DNA of 64,000 nt from Magnetococcales bacterium (GTDB taxonomy: Bacteria; Pseudomonadota; Magnetococcia; Magnetococcales; UBA8363), in contig JADGCQ010000008.1 in assembly GCA_015228925.1 (NCBI GenBank), positions 1 to 64,000 on the forward strand. The letters run 5' to 3'. Under the pieces are notes generated by a model. The model was given only the letters and a program-made list of their open reading frames with translations. It searched no databases and was not told where the DNA came from. A program made the translations under genes and the position numbers. The stretch's first letter is position 1. Every line of letters begins with the position of its first letter. This document shows positions 1 through 61,807 of this stretch, piece by piece.

Positions 1-33
1 GCAATCCCCCAGACCCCTTTTTTCTTTTAATAA
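1..33. repeat. Partial copy of dispersed inverted repeat (right arm)
   Basis: The first 33 bases match the right arm of the long inverted repeat seen complete at 19382-19576, from the GCAATCCCCC block to the TTTTCTTTTAATAA end. The left arm would lie before the window. The stop codon of the minus-strand membrane protein (27-29) falls inside this arm, so the repeat supplies the gene's stop and probably its transcription end. Confidence 0.85.
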
Positions 34-1427
34 TTGATTATTTCCGGGAATTTGGACGTGCCAATTTCAAATGCGATTGCCCTGGATGTCTCTCCCGGTT
101 TTGCGGCCATCCACGAGGTGTCCTTGAAGAAAGAATCAAAGTCAGGCAGGGCCTCCTGTTGGGGTGGTTTGTGTCCCAGGGCAAACCACAGGGTATAGAG
201 CAGCAAAGAGGCTTCGGCAATCAAGGACAATGCCAGCAGGATGATCATCGGTTCCCAGTTGCTCAGTACCGCCATGATCATCAAGATAACCACCAGCAGG
301 TGGGTAGGAAATTGCCAGCGCAAGGCCAATGGGGGGATCAGATCGTCCATCATGGGTATTTCCACCAAACCCGCCAAACGGCTAAATCGATGAAACCAGA
401 CCAAAAAAGGGATGATCTTCATCAACATGCCCAGCAGAATGGAAGAGACGCAGCCCAAAAGAAACACGCCGCCGAACAAAAACCGATTCCATTCCGCATC
501 CAGGACGGTCCATGAGACCATAAGGATCAGGGAAACCAAACCCGAAGCAAAGCCCAGGAACCAAAACCGAAGGGTAGCATCTATTTTTCTTCTTTTTCTC
601 CCCCCCAACATGACCACCATGCTTTTTCCGTAAAGAAGAATCGCCGCGAAAAAGAATGCCGTCGGGAGCCAGAAGATCCACTGACCCGTATTGGAAAAAT
701 AAAGGGTCAGAGGTTGTCCGATGAGAAAGAGGCTCCAACCTGAAAGGATGAGGAGGGCGTGTTTTCGAGGAATTTCCTGGGCCATCGTAAACATGGGCAA
801 CACCTGAAACGAAACCCCCACAATCAACACCCCAACCCAACCCATTAATCCCCATAATAAATGTGTCATGACCAAGGCGATGCGATCCATATCCAAAAAG
901 CCATGGGCATACTCACCGAGAAAAATACCGCCAAGAGTCAAAACACCCAGAAGACAGAAGGTGGCAATCCGCATGGCCATGACCGTTGGATGCCGGGATG
1001 GCGTTTGAAACAATCCCTTCAGGACTGGGATGGTGAACAGAATGACAGCCCCCCCCAAACCGAACGATGCAAAAAGGAGCATCCAGGGATGGATTTGGGT
1101 TGTCAAACCCAGATACATCGTGGCAACACCCATCACCAGCAACCCGTGGACCCATGGAACCAAACGCGGCCAAGGGACTGGAACCCCTGCGAGAACCGGG
1201 ATCATTTGGATCATGGCCCCAAACATGACCATGCAGATCCATCCCAGTGCAATAAGATGCACGGTGGCGATGGTCTCCGGGGCCAGGGGGGTGATCAACA
1301 GGTTTTGTCCATGGACCAGCAATGACACAGCGGTCAGAATCAGGAAAATGGGTGCCGTTACAAAAAAACGAAATGGCAAATGGAGGGGAGGAGCCTGATC
1401 GATATGAAGTCCACCGGTAGAAAACAT
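27..1427 (-). CDS. Polytopic membrane protein, NnrS / heme-copper oxidase subunit I-like
   Basis: This 466-residue protein is almost entirely hydrophobic, with about twelve predicted membrane segments. Two segments repeat a pattern of a His, a Gly-Trp, and a later Gln-x-[Ile/Leu]-Pro (near residues 55-85 and 185-215), like the haem-binding helices of NnrS and short heme-copper-oxidase-like proteins. The ATG start has a good ribosome site (AAGGA, about 7 bases away). It is divergent from a hemerythrin gene with an FNR-type box between, which suggests a role in nitric oxide or oxygen metabolism. The family call is tentative. The last codons and stop lie in a dispersed repeat arm. Confidence 0.6.
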   Translation of the reverse strand: MFSTGGLHIDQAPPLHLPFRFFVTAPIFLILTAVSLLVHGQNLLITPLAPETIATVHLIALGWICMVMFGAMIQMIPVLAGVPVPWPRLVPWVHGLLVMGVATMYLGLTTQIHPWMLLFASFGLGGAVILFTIPVLKGLFQTPSRHPTVMAMRIATFCLLGVLTLGGIFLGEYAHGFLDMDRIALVMTHLLWGLMGWVGVLIVGVSFQVLPMFTMAQEIPRKHALLILSGWSLFLIGQPLTLYFSNTGQWIFWLPTAFFFAAILLYGKSMVVMLGGRKRRKIDATLRFWFLGFASGLVSLILMVSWTVLDAEWNRFLFGGVFLLGCVSSILLGMLMKIIPFLVWFHRFSRLAGLVEIPMMDDLIPPLALRWQFPTHLLVVILMIMAVLSNWEPMIILLALSLIAEASLLLYTLWFALGHKPPQQEALPDFDSFFKDTSWMAAKPGETSRAIAFEIGTSKFPEIINY

Positions 1428-9948: not shown

Positions 9949-9954
9949 AAAAAA

Positions 9955-10160
9955 TTATTAAAAGAAAAAAGGGGTCTGGGGGATTGCCCCCAGGGTTTTG
10001 TCTTTGATTTTAAACAAAAAGGTTTCCATGCTCCGCTTTTGACCTTGTTTTTGACTTTATTTAGATTCAAAAGCAAATTCAAAATCGAAGAATGAAGCTT
10101 TTTATTTAAAGTCAAAACCCTGGGGAAAGAATTCCTAGAGACCCCTTCTTTTTTTTCAAT
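9955..10160. repeat. Dispersed long inverted-repeat element (copy 2)
   Basis: A left arm of about 46 bases (9955-10000) reads into a G-rich run GGGGTCTGGGGG and CCCCCAGGGTTTTG. An imperfect reverse complement lies at about 10113-10160. The core between the arms is A/T-rich and shares blocks such as CGAAGAATGAAGCTTTTTA with the copy at 19382-19576. It sits exactly between the convergent hydrolase and CHASE2 genes, so it probably ends transcription both ways. Confidence 0.85.
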
Positions 10161-10185
10161 CGTTTTTAAGGGGGAGGGGACCACA

Positions 10186-17977: not shown

Positions 17978-19351
17978 CTATCCAACGATATTATAAATCC
18001 TCTTCCTGAATCCCACCCCTAACTCCTCCCGTGCGATTCGCTCACAGGCGGCAATATCCACCCCCTCCAGCCCTTCGATTGCCGTCGCCTGAACATCCTT
18101 CACATAATGCTTGACTGCTAAGCAAAACCCCTTCACCGCCTCATAAGAACCCGCCAGCGACGGTCTGCAATGACGATCATAGACCATGGCATTCTGAGCA
18201 TTGAGCGAAATGGAGACCGCATCCACCAATCCCGCAAACAACGGCGTCACATCCCGTCCATACACCAAATTGGCCAATCCATCCGTGTTCACCCGAATCC
18301 GTTGACACCCCCTACCCTTCGCCCAACGGGCAACCTCCAACAACACCGATAACCGCAACGTCGGTTCACCATAGCCGCAAAACACCAACTCCTCATATGC
18401 AGAAATGTCTCCCAACGCCGCGATGATCTCCTGCGCCTTGGGATTGTGATGCAACGTCAGATCATAATGATGTACCCACGGCTTTTCCCACTTGGGACAA
18501 AATTGACACCGTAACGTACACCCCCCCGTCAGGTTGACATAGAGTCCTTTGCCGATGGCATAGGTCAACGTCTCCTTTTCCGGTGCCTCCAAACCAAATA
18601 AGCGCAGATAATTGGCGGTTGTCTGCGTCGCCAACTCTTCCAGGGATATCCCCTTGACCTGAGCCAATACCCGTGCCACCTCAACGACGAAAGAGGGTTC
18701 ATTGCGCTTACTGCGATGGGGCGTCGGGGCCAAATAGGGGGCATCCGTCTCCACCAAGAGTCGATCCAATGGAACCTCCGCAGCAACCTGCCGCAATGCT
18801 TGTGCACCACGAAACGTCAGAATACCCGAAAAACTGATATGATAGCCAAAATCAAGTGCCCAACGCGCCATGGCCAGCGATCCGGTAAAGCAATGAATCA
18901 CCCCGCCACATCCCCTGCCCCCCTCCTCCTCCAAGACCCGAATGGTATCACTTTCAGCCTCACGGGTATGAATGACCAACGGTAAATGACGCGCAACCGC
19001 GACCCGAATATGATCACGAAATACCCGTTCCTGCGCCTCTTTCGATGAATGATTATAATGAAAGTCAAATCCCGTCTCACCCACAGCCACCATCTTGGGA
19101 TGGTTCAACGCATTGAACAAGGCTGCCGTCACCCCCTCCCCCGCTTCTGCGGCATAATGGGGATGAATGCCAGCCGTGGTCGTGAGTTGTGGGTAAGACT
19201 CCACCAGATGGATTAACTCTTCAACTTCCGTTAATCGAGTGGAAATTGTATTAATGAAAGTCACTCCCGCTTGTTCGGCACGCTGGAGTATGGATTCCAA
19301 GTCCTGAGAAAAATCAGGAAAATTCAAATGACAATGGCTATCCGCAAGCAT
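17978..19351 (-). CDS. TatD-family hydrolase fused to a radical SAM domain
   Basis: The 457-residue protein joins two domains. Residues 1-255 are a TatD metal-dependent DNase/hydrolase, with HCH at 6-8, GETGFDF, HTREA, HCFTG and ETDAPYLAP. Residues 265-457 are a radical SAM domain with the cluster motif CTLRCQFC (C278, C282, C285), a GGCTLRC context and a GEPTLR motif. TatD-linked radical SAM proteins are known as a family, often as separate genes; their substrate is unknown. ATG at 19351 gives the canonical TatD start, preferred over a TTG at 19375. It lies just beyond the repeat at 19382-19576 from the ricT-holB-tmk run. Confidence 0.9.
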   Translation of the reverse strand: MLADSHCHLNFPDFSQDLESILQRAEQAGVTFINTISTRLTEVEELIHLVESYPQLTTTAGIHPHYAAEAGEGVTAALFNALNHPKMVAVGETGFDFHYNHSSKEAQERVFRDHIRVAVARHLPLVIHTREAESDTIRVLEEEGGRGCGGVIHCFTGSLAMARWALDFGYHISFSGILTFRGAQALRQVAAEVPLDRLLVETDAPYLAPTPHRSKRNEPSFVVEVARVLAQVKGISLEELATQTTANYLRLFGLEAPEKETLTYAIGKGLYVNLTGGCTLRCQFCPKWEKPWVHHYDLTLHHNPKAQEIIAALGDISAYEELVFCGYGEPTLRLSVLLEVARWAKGRGCQRIRVNTDGLANLVYGRDVTPLFAGLVDAVSISLNAQNAMVYDRHCRPSLAGSYEAVKGFCLAVKHYVKDVQATAIEGLEGVDIAACERIAREELGVGFRKRIYNIVG

Positions 19352-19381
19352 TTTTTCCCCCTGGTATACCGCCAAATAAAA

Positions 19382-19576
19382 CTATTAAAAGAAAAAAGGG
19401 GTCTGGGGGATTGCCCCCAGGGTTTTGATTTTAAACAAAAAGCTCCCATTTTTGCTTTGAATTTTCTTTTAAATTTAAACAAAGTCAACAGCGAAGAATG
19501 AAGCTTTTTATTTAAATTCAAAAGCAAATTCAAAACCCTGGGGGCAATCCCCCAGACCCCTTTTTTCTTTTAATAA
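19382..19576. repeat. Dispersed long inverted-repeat element (copy 3, complete)
   Basis: This is the best copy of the element. The left arm (about 19382-19427) and right arm (19531-19576) are almost perfect reverse complements over 46 bases, including GGGGTCTGGGGGATTGCCCC. The A/T-rich core of about 100 bases shares blocks with copy 2 at 9955-10160. It lies between two minus-strand genes, ricT and the TatD-radical SAM gene, so here it may end or weaken read-through within an otherwise conserved gene run. Confidence 0.9.
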
Positions 19577-19618
19577 TTTTTCATGGGGTGTTGACCAATG
19601 ATCGCATATCAACGCGAC

Positions 19619-28967: not shown

Positions 28968-29183
28968 GACCCGCCCGAACACTCCCGTCAACGTTGCTCC
29001 ATCCTGCATCTGGGCCTGCGTCTGGGCCTGCGTCCAGGCGCAACAACGCACCGCAAACCAGCGCGTTTTCCACACCTCTTCCGACGCATGAAGAAGGCAT
29101 CCCACACCTGTGTGCTAGAACTGAATGCTTACGTGTTTTGATTTTTCTATTGGATGCGTGCATAGCGGAATGAAATGAATGAT

Positions 29184-29258
<75 letters not shown>

Positions 29259-29326
29259 TGAAATAATAAAGTAAAATAACCGTGTTCTCTTTTTACAAAG
29301 CTTTTAATAAAACAGACTTCCATTAA

Positions 29327-29403
29327 TGGAGGCCGGGGTGGGATTCGAACCCACGAATAAAGGTTTTGCAGACCTCAGCGTTTGACCGCTTCGCCACCCG
29401 GCC
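29327..29403 (-). tRNA. tRNA-Cys (GCA)
   Basis: The 77-base minus-strand gene includes CCA. The acceptor stem GGCCGGG pairs with CCCGGCC, and the anticodon loop CTGCAAA gives GCA. It lies 9 bases after the first tRNA-Gly in transcription order, likely one precursor. Confidence 0.95.
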
Positions 29404-29412
29404 TTAAAAAAT

Positions 29413-29487
<75 letters not shown>

Positions 29488-58513: not shown

Positions 58514-61500
58514 TCAGTGATCTTTGTCCAATGCACTGGGAAAATTCAACTCATCGGGCATATTTTCAAGGTACGGTGGTGGTTCAATACCAAGACGTTT
58601 AAGAAGATCATCCAACAACATCCAATCCCCTTCCGGGGTTACCAGATCTCCCCGAATATAGGCCCGCAGACACCATTGCAATCGTCCTTCCCGTTTTTCG
58701 GGATGGCGGGCCAAATCTTCCAATAACACCCGATCTTCCGGGGTGCTTCTGCGGGCGATGTGCCGCGCCAGGGCAGACCACAGGGGTTCCGGGCGCTGTA
58801 ATTTTTTATAATAGGCCATTGCTTGTTGAAATGCCCTGTCATCTCCTCCCTGATGAAACGAAAGCCGACAGGCATGATGGAATAATTCTATTTCTGGTCC
58901 AAAAGGTTCTTTATTAATAGAATCATGTTCTAGCTGCCCATGGGCCAACAGAGCGCGGGTGCCTGCACGACCTGGAGACAACACTTCCGTCGTCAACAAA
59001 TCCAAATGGGAATTCCGCTTTGGGTCCATTTTGATGTCATGCGCCAAGTCATGCGCCCAGTCGCGCACCCAGTCGCGCGCCAAGTCGCGCGCCAAGTCGC
59101 GCGCCCAGTCGCGCGCCAAGTAGTGCGCCAAGTACCGCGCCAAGTCGCGCGCCAAGTACCGCGCCAAGTCGTGCGCCAAGTCGTGCGCCCAGTCGTGCGC
59201 CAAGTCGTGCGCCAAGTACCGCGCCAAGTCGTGCGCCAAGTACCGCGTCAAGTCGCGCGCCCAATCACGCTCCAAGTCACGCGCCAAGTCACGCGATTTC
59301 CTGCTTTCAGCCCCTGGAAATAACCAGCAAAAGGAAGTTTGCCCAAGTGACAAGGCCAACTCAAAACCAAGAACAAAGAGAAGGTTTTGACCAGAAAACC
59401 CCCACTGACGGCGTCTTCCAGGCCAAGTTTGTATGAGAAGACTTTCACTCCAACCTGGCCAGATGGAAACACCGCCATTGAGGAGTCGTCCCACGGCAAG
59501 CCCCTTGTCCCCCTCTGGGGCATCATTCATGGCGTGCAGGAACAGCGTGAAGCCAGGGCGAGCATGATCACGCATTGGTTGTAAACCGATCATTTCCAAC
59601 CCTGTATTCAACCGCTGACAAGCCATCCAATTGGCATTGTTAGCTCCCTCACTCTGCCATTGGCGCTGAATGATGGCTTTACTCTCCTCTTTCCTACTGA
59701 CTTTCCAAGCGTCCAACCCTTGATCGGTACCACGTTTCCAATCTTTCGCCAGCGCAATACCACTCCTCTTAGACCACTCTTTGACATGTTTCAATAAATC
59801 ATCAGCAAGAAAAGTTCCTGCCAACCATAATCCATATTCTTCATCTTCGCATAGATGAGAAAATACTGGTTCTAACCGTTCCGGGTTGATATCAGCGACT
59901 AGGGCGGCCCAAAGACGTAATGTTTCCCACCAAAAGCCAAGGTGTCTCCATTGAGCAACCAATACAATCCGCCCTTGATCACCTTCTATGGTAGCTTGCA
60001 GATGCCAAGCGGTGAGAAATTCTTGAAAACTCAGATGGGCAAAAGAAAGTTTATAGTCAGTGCGATCCACCAACACCCCGGCGGGACCAGAAAGCCAGGA
60101 TAAGAAACCATCCTTATGGGCTGAATCCCAGTCGGACGGTAAATATTTGGCCATCTCCTCCCAGGATTGCACCAAACTTTTTCTTCCGGTTTTTTCATCA
60201 TACCCTGTTTCCTGCATCCCATGGGCCAGTGCTGCGACAACACGAAAGCGTTCGGCCCCAGAATCGGGACGCCAACGATGCCGTTCTCCCCGCACCCCCT
60301 CCTGTTCCCTACGGTCGGGCAGTGCTGACAGGAGATTATCCAAAGTGACCTGATAAAGCTTGTGCCGACGGTCCGGGAGAGGGCTGGTGCGGCTGACCAG
60401 GAGCATCATGGTCAGCAACAAAGCGGTACGGGCCAAATCATGAGCTTCGGGGGTATGAAACAATCGGTCTATAAATTCTTCGGTCGCTTTTTTCCCGGCC
60501 ACCTGATCGCTACCATGAATGTGCTGAAAAAAATTCCCGGAGAGTTTCCTGATTTCTCTATCATCCAGAGGCTGAACATCCCACACCGTAAAACCCTCAT
60601 TGTAGGTGGGACTATCGCCATACGGACGACTACTGAGAACCACCTTCATGCCACTGTTCTTTTTCATGAAAACCAACAATTTTTGACGGAAATCTTGGCC
60701 CAACTCCCCCAGTTCATCCCACCCATCCACCAATAAAACTGGAGTAACTGTTTTCGTTCTGGCAAACTGAAGGAAAAAGGCCTCTTGCCATTCTTTCAGC
60801 CCATATTCCGCCAACCACGATCCCAAAAATGATTCCAGATTATGGAATTTTTCTTCGACATTCTGCCAATACCGCGCCAAAGCTCGCAGTTCCACGAAAA
60901 ACGGAAACGTATCCTCACGTGTTAATAATTGCCGAAAGGTCCACCGCATCCAGGTGGTCTTGCCCGACCCCGCCACACCGCGCACAACCAGGGGTTTACT
61001 CAGAGATAGCACCTCTTCAGGTTCCAGTGTCTTTCCCTCTTCAAGCTTATCTGGATCATATCCCTTACCCAAGCGCAAAGAAACATACATGTTTTCCAGC
61101 GTGGCATCCACCACCTTGTCCTTTGCTGGTCCCGACGCAGCTGCCCCCACATGGCGCAAATCCCATCGGTCAAAGAGAAAAGCCAGTTTTTCCCGATATG
61201 CCCGCAAGAAAGGGGCACTCATGACACTTTCTGGCTGCGGTGCAGCAAATGGCCAGTTCTCATAACCTCGAAAAAAAATCCAGGCGTCATCAGCCGATTG
61301 AGCTACTTGATCAGGTTTTAAATTGAACAATGCACACACAACACTGACCAGCGCATTACCCGCTTTTTCCCAGTTTTCTTTCCTGAAATCGGCAAAAGCA
61401 GGCTTACTTTCCAACTTGGTTTTGTCGTCCATCCTAAAAGCATGGGGAAAACAATGATCTGGATCATGGATATGTTCAAGCCAATCGGAATTTCCTGCAA

Positions 61501-61807
61501 AAACACAGGCAATGATCTGTTTATTACCGCGAATCTTCTTAAAATTTTGAATTTCAAGTTCCACATAAGGGGATTTGGCAGATTCGGGGGTACAGAGGAG
61601 GATTAAGAACTCGGATTGTTCTAATGCAGCGACTATCTTTCCATCCAAATCGGCCCCTGCGGCAATCTTGGCGGTATCGAAAAAAATAGTTTCATCGTTC
61701 AGTTCATTTTTAAAGCGTTCGATGGAAAACAATCGTTTACGCAACCATTGGGCTTGGTCGGTATTCTCCCGACTGTAGCTGATAAACGCCTTATATGGAA
61801 ACCCCAT
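58514..61807 (-). CDS. TIR-NACHT STAND protein with tandem tetrapeptide repeats
   Basis: The 1097-residue protein has an N-terminal TIR_2-type domain (about 1-165; AFISYSREN at the start, and the probable NADase Glu85 in SPYVELEI). A NACHT NTPase follows: Walker A GVAGSGKT (277-284), Walker B VLLVDGWDE (357-365), sensor VVLSSRP (389-395) and the FAHLSFQEFL end of the module near 595. A helical region leads to 21 tandem tetrapeptides [L/W]-A-[R/H]-[D/Y] (841-924) and a unique 170-residue tail. In other bacteria TIR-NACHT proteins act as phage sensors that deplete NAD on activation; that role here is inference. The start lies 10 bases after the beta-propeller/TPR gene, so the two are probably one operon. 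No transposase is nearby. Confidence 0.88.
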   Translation of the reverse strand: MGFPYKAFISYSRENTDQAQWLRKRLFSIERFKNELNDETIFFDTAKIAAGADLDGKIVAALEQSEFLILLCTPESAKSPYVELEIQNFKKIRGNKQIIACVFAGNSDWLEHIHDPDHCFPHAFRMDDKTKLESKPAFADFRKENWEKAGNALVSVVCALFNLKPDQVAQSADDAWIFFRGYENWPFAAPQPESVMSAPFLRAYREKLAFLFDRWDLRHVGAAASGPAKDKVVDATLENMYVSLRLGKGYDPDKLEEGKTLEPEEVLSLSKPLVVRGVAGSGKTTWMRWTFRQLLTREDTFPFFVELRALARYWQNVEEKFHNLESFLGSWLAEYGLKEWQEAFFLQFARTKTVTPVLLVDGWDELGELGQDFRQKLLVFMKKNSGMKVVLSSRPYGDSPTYNEGFTVWDVQPLDDREIRKLSGNFFQHIHGSDQVAGKKATEEFIDRLFHTPEAHDLARTALLLTMMLLVSRTSPLPDRRHKLYQVTLDNLLSALPDRREQEGVRGERHRWRPDSGAERFRVVAALAHGMQETGYDEKTGRKSLVQSWEEMAKYLPSDWDSAHKDGFLSWLSGPAGVLVDRTDYKLSFAHLSFQEFLTAWHLQATIEGDQGRIVLVAQWRHLGFWWETLRLWAALVADINPERLEPVFSHLCEDEEYGLWLAGTFLADDLLKHVKEWSKRSGIALAKDWKRGTDQGLDAWKVSRKEESKAIIQRQWQSEGANNANWMACQRLNTGLEMIGLQPMRDHARPGFTLFLHAMNDAPEGDKGLAVGRLLNGGVSIWPGWSESLLIQTWPGRRRQWGFSGQNLLFVLGFELALSLGQTSFCWLFPGAESRKSRDLARDLERDWARDLTRYLAHDLARYLAHDLAHDWAHDLAHDLARYLARDLARYLAHYLARDWARDLARDLARDWVRDWAHDLAHDIKMDPKRNSHLDLLTTEVLSPGRAGTRALLAHGQLEHDSINKEPFGPEIELFHHACRLSFHQGGDDRAFQQAMAYYKKLQRPEPLWSALARHIARRSTPEDRVLLEDLARHPEKREGRLQWCLRAYIRGDLVTPEGDWMLLDDLLKRLGIEPPPYLENMPDELNFPSALDKDH
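59036..59287 (-). repeat. 12-bp minisatellite encoding 21 [L/W]A[R/H][D/Y] units
   Basis: Twenty-one contiguous 12-base units run from 59036 to 59287 without a gap. Coding-strand units read TTGGCGCGCGAC with changes mainly at codon 3 (CGC/CAC), codon 4 (GAC/TAC) and codon 1 (TTG/TGG). Because the unit is a multiple of three, gain or loss of units would keep the frame and only alter protein length. Confidence 0.95.

Follow-up and report, generated by a model that had tools for sequence, protein, structure and literature searches.

Among the described systems, those closest to the repeat family analyzed here are the repeats of S. pneumoniae, REP/BIME sequences, IS-derived MITEs and TIMEs. The pneumococcal repeats SPRITE, RUP and BOX are short, noncoding and intergenic, as are our elements. 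According to PMC3049150, these pneumococcal families are overrepresented between convergent genes and nested in one another; RUP has IS630-Spn1-like ends and SPRITE is terminator-like without IS-like ends. Each of these repeat families has ends of its own, whereas in the family described here one interior is found within several unrelated ends (PMC3049150). With REP/BIME sequences, as portrayed in PMC3733652, our family shares high-copy intergenic hairpins, inverted pairs, mosaic spacers and RAYT-like genes in the genome. It differs from them in that no arm-flanked RAYT was found, the cassette is without a GTAG or CGTC tag and the ends of DDE transposons lie outside it. Like IS-derived MITEs (PMC10969869), the elements are noncoding, about 200-300 bp long, have ends in common with an autonomous IS and show target duplications, but their interior is common to ISAs1-, IS66- and B-type ends and their arms are better conserved than their ends. 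The Tn3-derived TIMEs are also mosaic, non-autonomous elements with exchanged interiors; according to PMC4133298, however, they belong to one transposon superfamily and are usually single-copy. The present family is unusual in that a single palindromic interior is combined with the end types of two or more identified transposase families. A survey of the open-access literature, by title and abstract opening, yielded no description that we recognized of this repeat or of one interior common to several end families.

The window, i.e., the whole stretch of DNA that was analyzed, covers 64 kb from the start of contig C208. The genome, which belongs to a magnetotactic-type bacterium of the Magnetococcales, measures 4.25 Mb in 219 contigs, and its named relatives are Magnetococcales MAGs. 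A whole-genome pattern search for the 23-base hairpin arm (at most 2 mismatches) returned 157 forward and 168 reverse matches, and the reversed-pattern control returned 0. About 160 elements are situated between genes in the 4.25 Mb. With up to 3 mismatches allowed, the window itself has three matches to the arm pattern and 100 shuffled versions have none. The dispersed inverted-repeat element that the earlier note had reported in three copies is therefore real and larger than reported. It is also no small set of copies diverging as plain terminators do, since arms number in the hundreds in the genome and, of 234 sampled in the loci examined, 178 were identical to the letter. When the same search was applied to 61 genomes, the arm was found in all eight genomes of the genus (own genome included; 6 to 168 matches per strand) and in none of the 53 other relatives outside the genus. 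Within this set, the repeat family is genus-specific. Of the first 30 loci built, 22 sit at a contig end. Assembly breaks at these repeats, leaving the genomes in hundreds of contigs, and because all genomes are fragmented MAGs broken at repeats, chimeric joins are possible.

Direct reading of the sequence confirmed the placement of two elements, at 19378-19580 and, for its relative, at 9951-10166 (Table 1). The stretch at 1-33 had been listed as a partial copy; it is element sequence, bases 1-35 being 100% identical to 19544-19578, but C208 itself begins at position 1, so the truncation is due to the assembly and the copy is not naturally partial. The arms of the 19378-19580 copy are 55 nt long, 96% complementary and 93 nt apart. 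In the 9951-10166 copy, the left arm matches its counterpart in the 19.4-kb copy with 93% identity over 59 nt, and the right arm has diverged to a GAATTC-type hairpin (66% over 35 nt). Both copies fold as one long hairpin each, far better than shuffled sequences (z = -14.7 and -8.1). The relative G004 also contains the 9.95-kb copy's left part, at which its contig stops.

Table 1. Parts of the three window copies, with window positions, strand and the basis of each assignment
Feature	Positions	Strand	Basis
Copy 1, remaining right hairpin arm (1-17), T-rich tract and A/T-rich outer border (18-35)	1..35	+	identity to 19544-19578
Copy 1, spacer between cassette and ISAs1-type end	36..62	.	recurs in L010, L016, L117
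Copy 1, ISAs1-type terminal inverted repeat CAGGGCAATCGCATTTGAAATT (module E)	63..84	-	22/22 to both L245 IS ends
Copy 2, A/T-rich left border	9951..9970	+	~20 nt on the arm's outer side, conserved across 96 own-genome arms
Copy 2, left hairpin arm, common form	9971..9993	+	exact match
Copy 2, A/T-rich mosaic core	9994..10119	.	blocks in common with other copies
Copy 2, right hairpin arm, diverged GAATTC form	10120..10145	-	folds with left arm
Copy 2, T-rich right border	10146..10166	+	no transposon end recognized outside
Copy 3, A/T-rich left border	19378..19397	+	55-nt arms, 96% complementary
Copy 3, left hairpin arm	19398..19420	+	exact match
Copy 3, A/T-rich mosaic core	19421..19537	.	sequence read and comparison of cores
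Copy 3, right hairpin arm	19538..19560	-	exact match
Copy 3, T-rich right border	19561..19580	+	sequence read and arm alignment
Copy 3, degenerate module-B type transposon end	19585..19618	-	adjoins stop codon of RicT-family gene; missed by automatic typing

Rfam recognized three tRNAs in the window and no family at the elements. The TAA stop (27-29) of the minus-strand ORF 27-1427 lies inside the cassette border, and its last codons would be element sequence; at E 0.001, neither Pfam nor NCBIfam gave a family for this ORF. Two further repeats were observed in the window. At 58988-59331, within the minus-strand ORF 58514-61807, there is an array of a 12-nt direct repeat (19 overlapping register copies, 63-100%), and at 29182-29487 two identical 77-nt stretches each contain a tRNA gene, with a different tRNA in between.

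The inner layer of the elements is a palindromic cassette. Its plan was derived from 81 complete copies, located mostly via an exact arm and with each DNA context counted once, a set that may include sister-species orthologues. A conserved A/T-rich border of about 20 nt is followed by a hairpin arm, a core and then the mirror image, and two near-invariant GC hairpins thereby face each other around an A/T-rich mosaic core. The cores consist of a few short blocks in varying combinations, and the description of them as mosaics of common blocks was correct; 6 of 76 cores instead hold a different nested palindrome (module D). At L023, L058, L070, L102, L159 and L160, the core is replaced by a larger nested palindrome (CACGCGCCCCTTATCCCGAAGC...), resulting in palindromes within palindromes. 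Inverted pairs of hairpin units with mosaic spacers, as in a BIME, were thus found in 81 complete pairs with shuffled core blocks. Comparison of the arm letters with the REP superfamilies described in PMC3733652 revealed no GTAG or CGTC tag beside the hairpin. A RAYT gene flanked by the arm was found at neither of the two own-genome Y1_Tnp loci, one of which (L137) has only about 200 bases of flank on one side. The search for an ORF-bearing element between two arms listed arm pairs 600-3500 bp apart. A conserved RNA structure in the core was also considered and found no support, left and right blocks being complementary no more often than expected (18 of 61 versus 21.7). Covariation in the hairpin amounted to one clear double change (GGGGTATTGACCCC, in L038), with little power because the arms are too uniform.

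Outside the borders lies an outer layer of alternative terminal inverted repeats, modules B, C and E. Module B reads GGGCGTGTTGACATTC (77 genome matches to an 18-base form), module C reads GTAACCGTTCAG followed by Cs (31 genome matches) and module E is CAGGGCAATCGCATTTGAAATT. The arms had earlier been taken for the terminal inverted repeats themselves; in the window, the transposon ends lie further out, at 63-84 and 19585-19618. Among the 81 complete copies, 34 could be typed on both sides, 22 on one side only and 25 had no recognized end, in a typing that overlooks degenerate ends (the 19.4-kb copy has one). Of the 34 copies typed on both sides, 30 have the same end type left and right, where 13.0 +/- 2.7 would do so by chance (20,000 shuffles, P = 5e-5). 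Stacked arrangements occur as well, with C, then B, then the cassette (L042), or E, then B, then the cassette (L014). In the loci examined, ends without a cassette account for 14 of 51 B sites, 17 of 47 C sites and 7 of 27 E sites. The C (IS66-type) ends also wrap unrelated GC palindromes (L135 3031-3140, L174 and L175), two of which start with CGTC and, by eye, resemble CGTC REPs. A short module-B palindrome without a cassette, with TA on both sides, was seen at L169 548-610.

For module E, an autonomous partner is present in the same genome. L245 is an intact 1416-bp ISAs1-family IS with module E at both ends (22/22) and a 10-bp duplication, ACTGGTTTTG (10/10); its transposase scores 404.5 bits against the NCBIfam ISAs1 model (cut-off 70). 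The 22/22 match extends to window positions 63-84, and the ends thus match an autonomous IS, as in an ISAs1-derived MITE. The earlier note had proposed to look for a full element with a transposase sharing the arms; L245 is such an element as regards the E ends. IS66 elements are described as starting with GTAAGCG and having 8-bp repeats (PMC11946415). An IS66 transposase lies between C-like ends at L234 in G001 (ends 10/12 to the module-C core, flanks 7/8) and at L241 in G002 (ends 11/12, no duplication seen). Ends matching those of IS66 elements (GTAA start), as in an IS66-derived MITE, were accordingly found in relatives only, and the own genome yielded no intact IS66 bounded by C ends. A partner of module B was sought among IS630/DDE_3 elements, and none of nine DDE_3 loci in the genus carries a pair of B ends. 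Pairs of B ends 600-3500 bp apart were discarded as candidates for the autonomous partner, being mostly 4-mismatch chance matches. Copies of the cassette are thus enclosed by ends from two and probably three or more unrelated transposon families, which suggests one passenger sequence spread on several vehicles.

A check of the flanks for duplications, suggested in the earlier note, was positive for E/E and some C/C copies and did not exceed the control in copies without typed ends. The flanks of the five E/E copies match at 10/10, 9/10, 9/10, 9/9 and 8/10 (5/5 at 8/10 or better; control 0/20 at 9/10 or better). The usual target duplication of the ISAs1 family is 8-10 bp, and duplications of this length are present in all five E/E copies and at L245. 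Of the 15 C/C copies, four show a flank match of at least 7/8 (control at 7/8, 0/210), i.e., the 8-bp duplication of an IS66-derived MITE, one more has 9/9 flanks (1/210 controls gets to 8/9) and ten are without clear duplication. B/B copies are flanked by TA..TA in 4 of 10 cases, which is not beyond the control frequency (27/90). For the 25 copies without recognized ends, direct repeats were not beyond control. The suggestion of a MITE or REP/BIME-like family thus holds for the outer layer as a MITE (ends, duplications and L245) and for the inner layer as a BIME, the GTAG/CGTC tag excepted. The element is a MITE by its ends and BIME-like by its interior.

The best evidence that the composite itself moves comes from reciprocal insertions in the own genome and its sister species G004, which is collinear with own contig C162 (91-98% identity over collinear blocks). 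In one intergenic region, both genomes have a C-bounded copy, about 20 bp apart. The own copy has the flanks CTTCAATGG; the G004 copy, in which the left arm has lost its outer half, has CGCTGAT and one mismatched base. The target used in either genome is still empty in the other. As the C and E target duplications lie outside the ends, the composite itself moved, and its movement is well supported. At one nearby site, the cassette is present in both species with different indels alongside, and at another, a truncated copy in the own genome corresponds to a fuller one in G004; a nearby C-bounded site has other content in G004.

The 19.4-kb copy lies at the junction of a tatD gene (17978-19375), encoding a fusion of TatD nuclease and TatD-associated radical SAM domain (TIGR00010 + TIGR04038), and a RicT-family gene. 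This gene pair is kept in five relatives. In all five relatives with both genes, the junction is without an arm-bearing element; a sixth relative showed tatD only. At the tatD junction of G006 (L183), a border-like stretch, CTTTTCTTTCAATAATTTG, lies without arms at the place of the 19.4-kb element and may be a relic of an older element. The comparisons of L044 with L121 and of L139 with L099, in which the element is in one genome only and the far flank is unmatched, were not counted as empty sites. At L044/L121, the own genome and DCbin2 have the same gene to the left of the element and differ to the right, and the repeat is a possible rearrangement point.

Copies with B, C and E ends are all present in the own genome, G004 and DCbin4. 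Core k-mers of the own genome are not clustered by end type (P = 0.18), 12 of 25 nearest neighbors being of another end type. Within-type core similarity was significant in G004 alone (P = 0.0045) and, weakly, in own genome and G004 together (P = 0.0175). Therefore, interiors seem to be exchanged between end types, but not freely. For the 79 copies in which one or both arms are exact, the partner arm is likewise exact 63 times and its per-base difference is 1.65%; divergence from the consensus is 11.1% for B ends, 12.3% for C ends and 6.6% for E ends. Conservation is much stronger in the arms than in the transposon ends, a contrast inflated by the choice of copies via an exact arm and by subfamilies or heterogeneity among the end consensuses. 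In a decaying MITE, the inside is not expected to outlast the ends.

Gene context was scored with a home-made gene caller, on which the following counts rest. None of 70 examined copies lies inside a predicted gene. The earlier statement that all copies abut a gene's 3' end applies to 66 of 69 scored copies; in control gaps (100 bp or longer) the figure is 41 of 50, which makes this a modest enrichment (Fisher P = 0.027). These 69 copies comprise 23 convergent, 43 tandem and 3 divergent gaps, the control gaps 9, 32 and 9; convergent enrichment by itself gave P = 0.093. Counting the gene ends that face the elements, 89 of 138 are 3' ends (control 50/100, P = 0.033). A scan of the consensus detected terminator-like hairpins at the arms on both strands, with a GC hairpin followed by a T tract as in intrinsic terminators. 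The small hairpin is separated from the T run by a 5-nt gap, and the long arm-to-arm stem extends into the T run. Such hairpins on both strands make bidirectional termination plausible, and a putative role of the element as a bidirectional intrinsic terminator is plausible on the basis of its sequence.

We consider it likely that the repeats are a family of genus-specific chimeric miniature transposable elements, in which the composite is moved in trans by matching transposases and the arms are kept uniform. This explanation builds on the copy number, the layering, the ends in common with autonomous ISs, the C and E duplications and the insertion history of two sister species. The interior would be a BIME-like palindromic cassette of two inverted, nearly invariant hairpin units with an A/T-rich mosaic spacer, and the ends would be terminal inverted repeats of unrelated transposase families, namely ISAs1 (E), IS66 (C) and B, with its frequent TA flanks. 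Matching transposases would move the composite in trans, duplicating the target, and recombination between copies would exchange the interiors. After insertion, the ends would decay and the arms would stay uniform, and the putative role as a bidirectional terminator would make insertion behind genes tolerable.

A selfish MITE family without a host role, its arms uniform from recent amplification or recombination only, is quite possible, although we lean slightly against it; apart from the putative terminator role, it is compatible with the chimeric elements proposed above. Like other MITEs, the copies are absent from predicted genes and show modest context biases, and the core halves have no preference for complementary blocks. 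Recent amplification alone should, however, leave the ends as uniform as the arms, which they are not, even if end heterogeneity and exact-arm choice inflate the difference. Rather unlikely in our judgment is a cassette that is an independent mobile palindrome of REP/BIME type, moved by RAYT without target duplication and landing preferentially in the middle of existing MITEs, with the ends as targets and not vehicles. The own genome does contain two RAYT-like genes, with NCBIfam scores of 81.6 (above the cut-off of 80) and 74.4 (below it), the 25 copies without recognized ends show no duplication and ends also exist without the cassette. Against this, no arm was present in the DNA examined around either RAYT-like gene, the arms are without the REP tags and the C- and E-bounded copies have target duplications outside their ends, indicating that the composite moved.

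The arms with their T-rich tracts on both strands could also belong to ordinary bidirectional intrinsic terminators, alike through selection and gene conversion, with nearby transposon ends being incidental. The excess of 3' gene ends, the mere three copies in divergent gaps and partner arms that differ far less than the ends do would agree with this. Nevertheless, we regard it as very improbable: symmetric end types and duplications are unexpected of terminators, the conserved 19.4-kb junction is without an arm-bearing element in relatives, most copies lie between tandem genes and convergent enrichment alone is not significant. In the chimeric elements that we prefer, the cassette may have been captured by transposon ends or may itself have landed in MITEs. 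The 25 of 81 complete copies that have no recognized ends, and no direct repeats beyond control, could reflect a further mode of cassette spread that leaves target sites unduplicated.

Tentatively, and as a possibility rather than a probability, we propose that the cassette, and not the transposon, is the persisting unit. It would switch vehicles (ISAs1, IS66 and a third), be spread in trans and be kept as a host-tolerated putative bidirectional terminator while the ends decay. For practical purposes, the repeats deserve masking ahead of synteny or binning work. How REP-like palindromes spread without a dedicated transposase is stated as open for CGTC REPs (PMC3733652). Because two or more identified DDE transposon families enclose the same palindrome between their ends, with target duplications, hitchhiking on ordinary transposons is a testable route. 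If the cassette is indeed the persisting unit, this would provide one dispersal route for REP-like palindromes without a transposase of their own.
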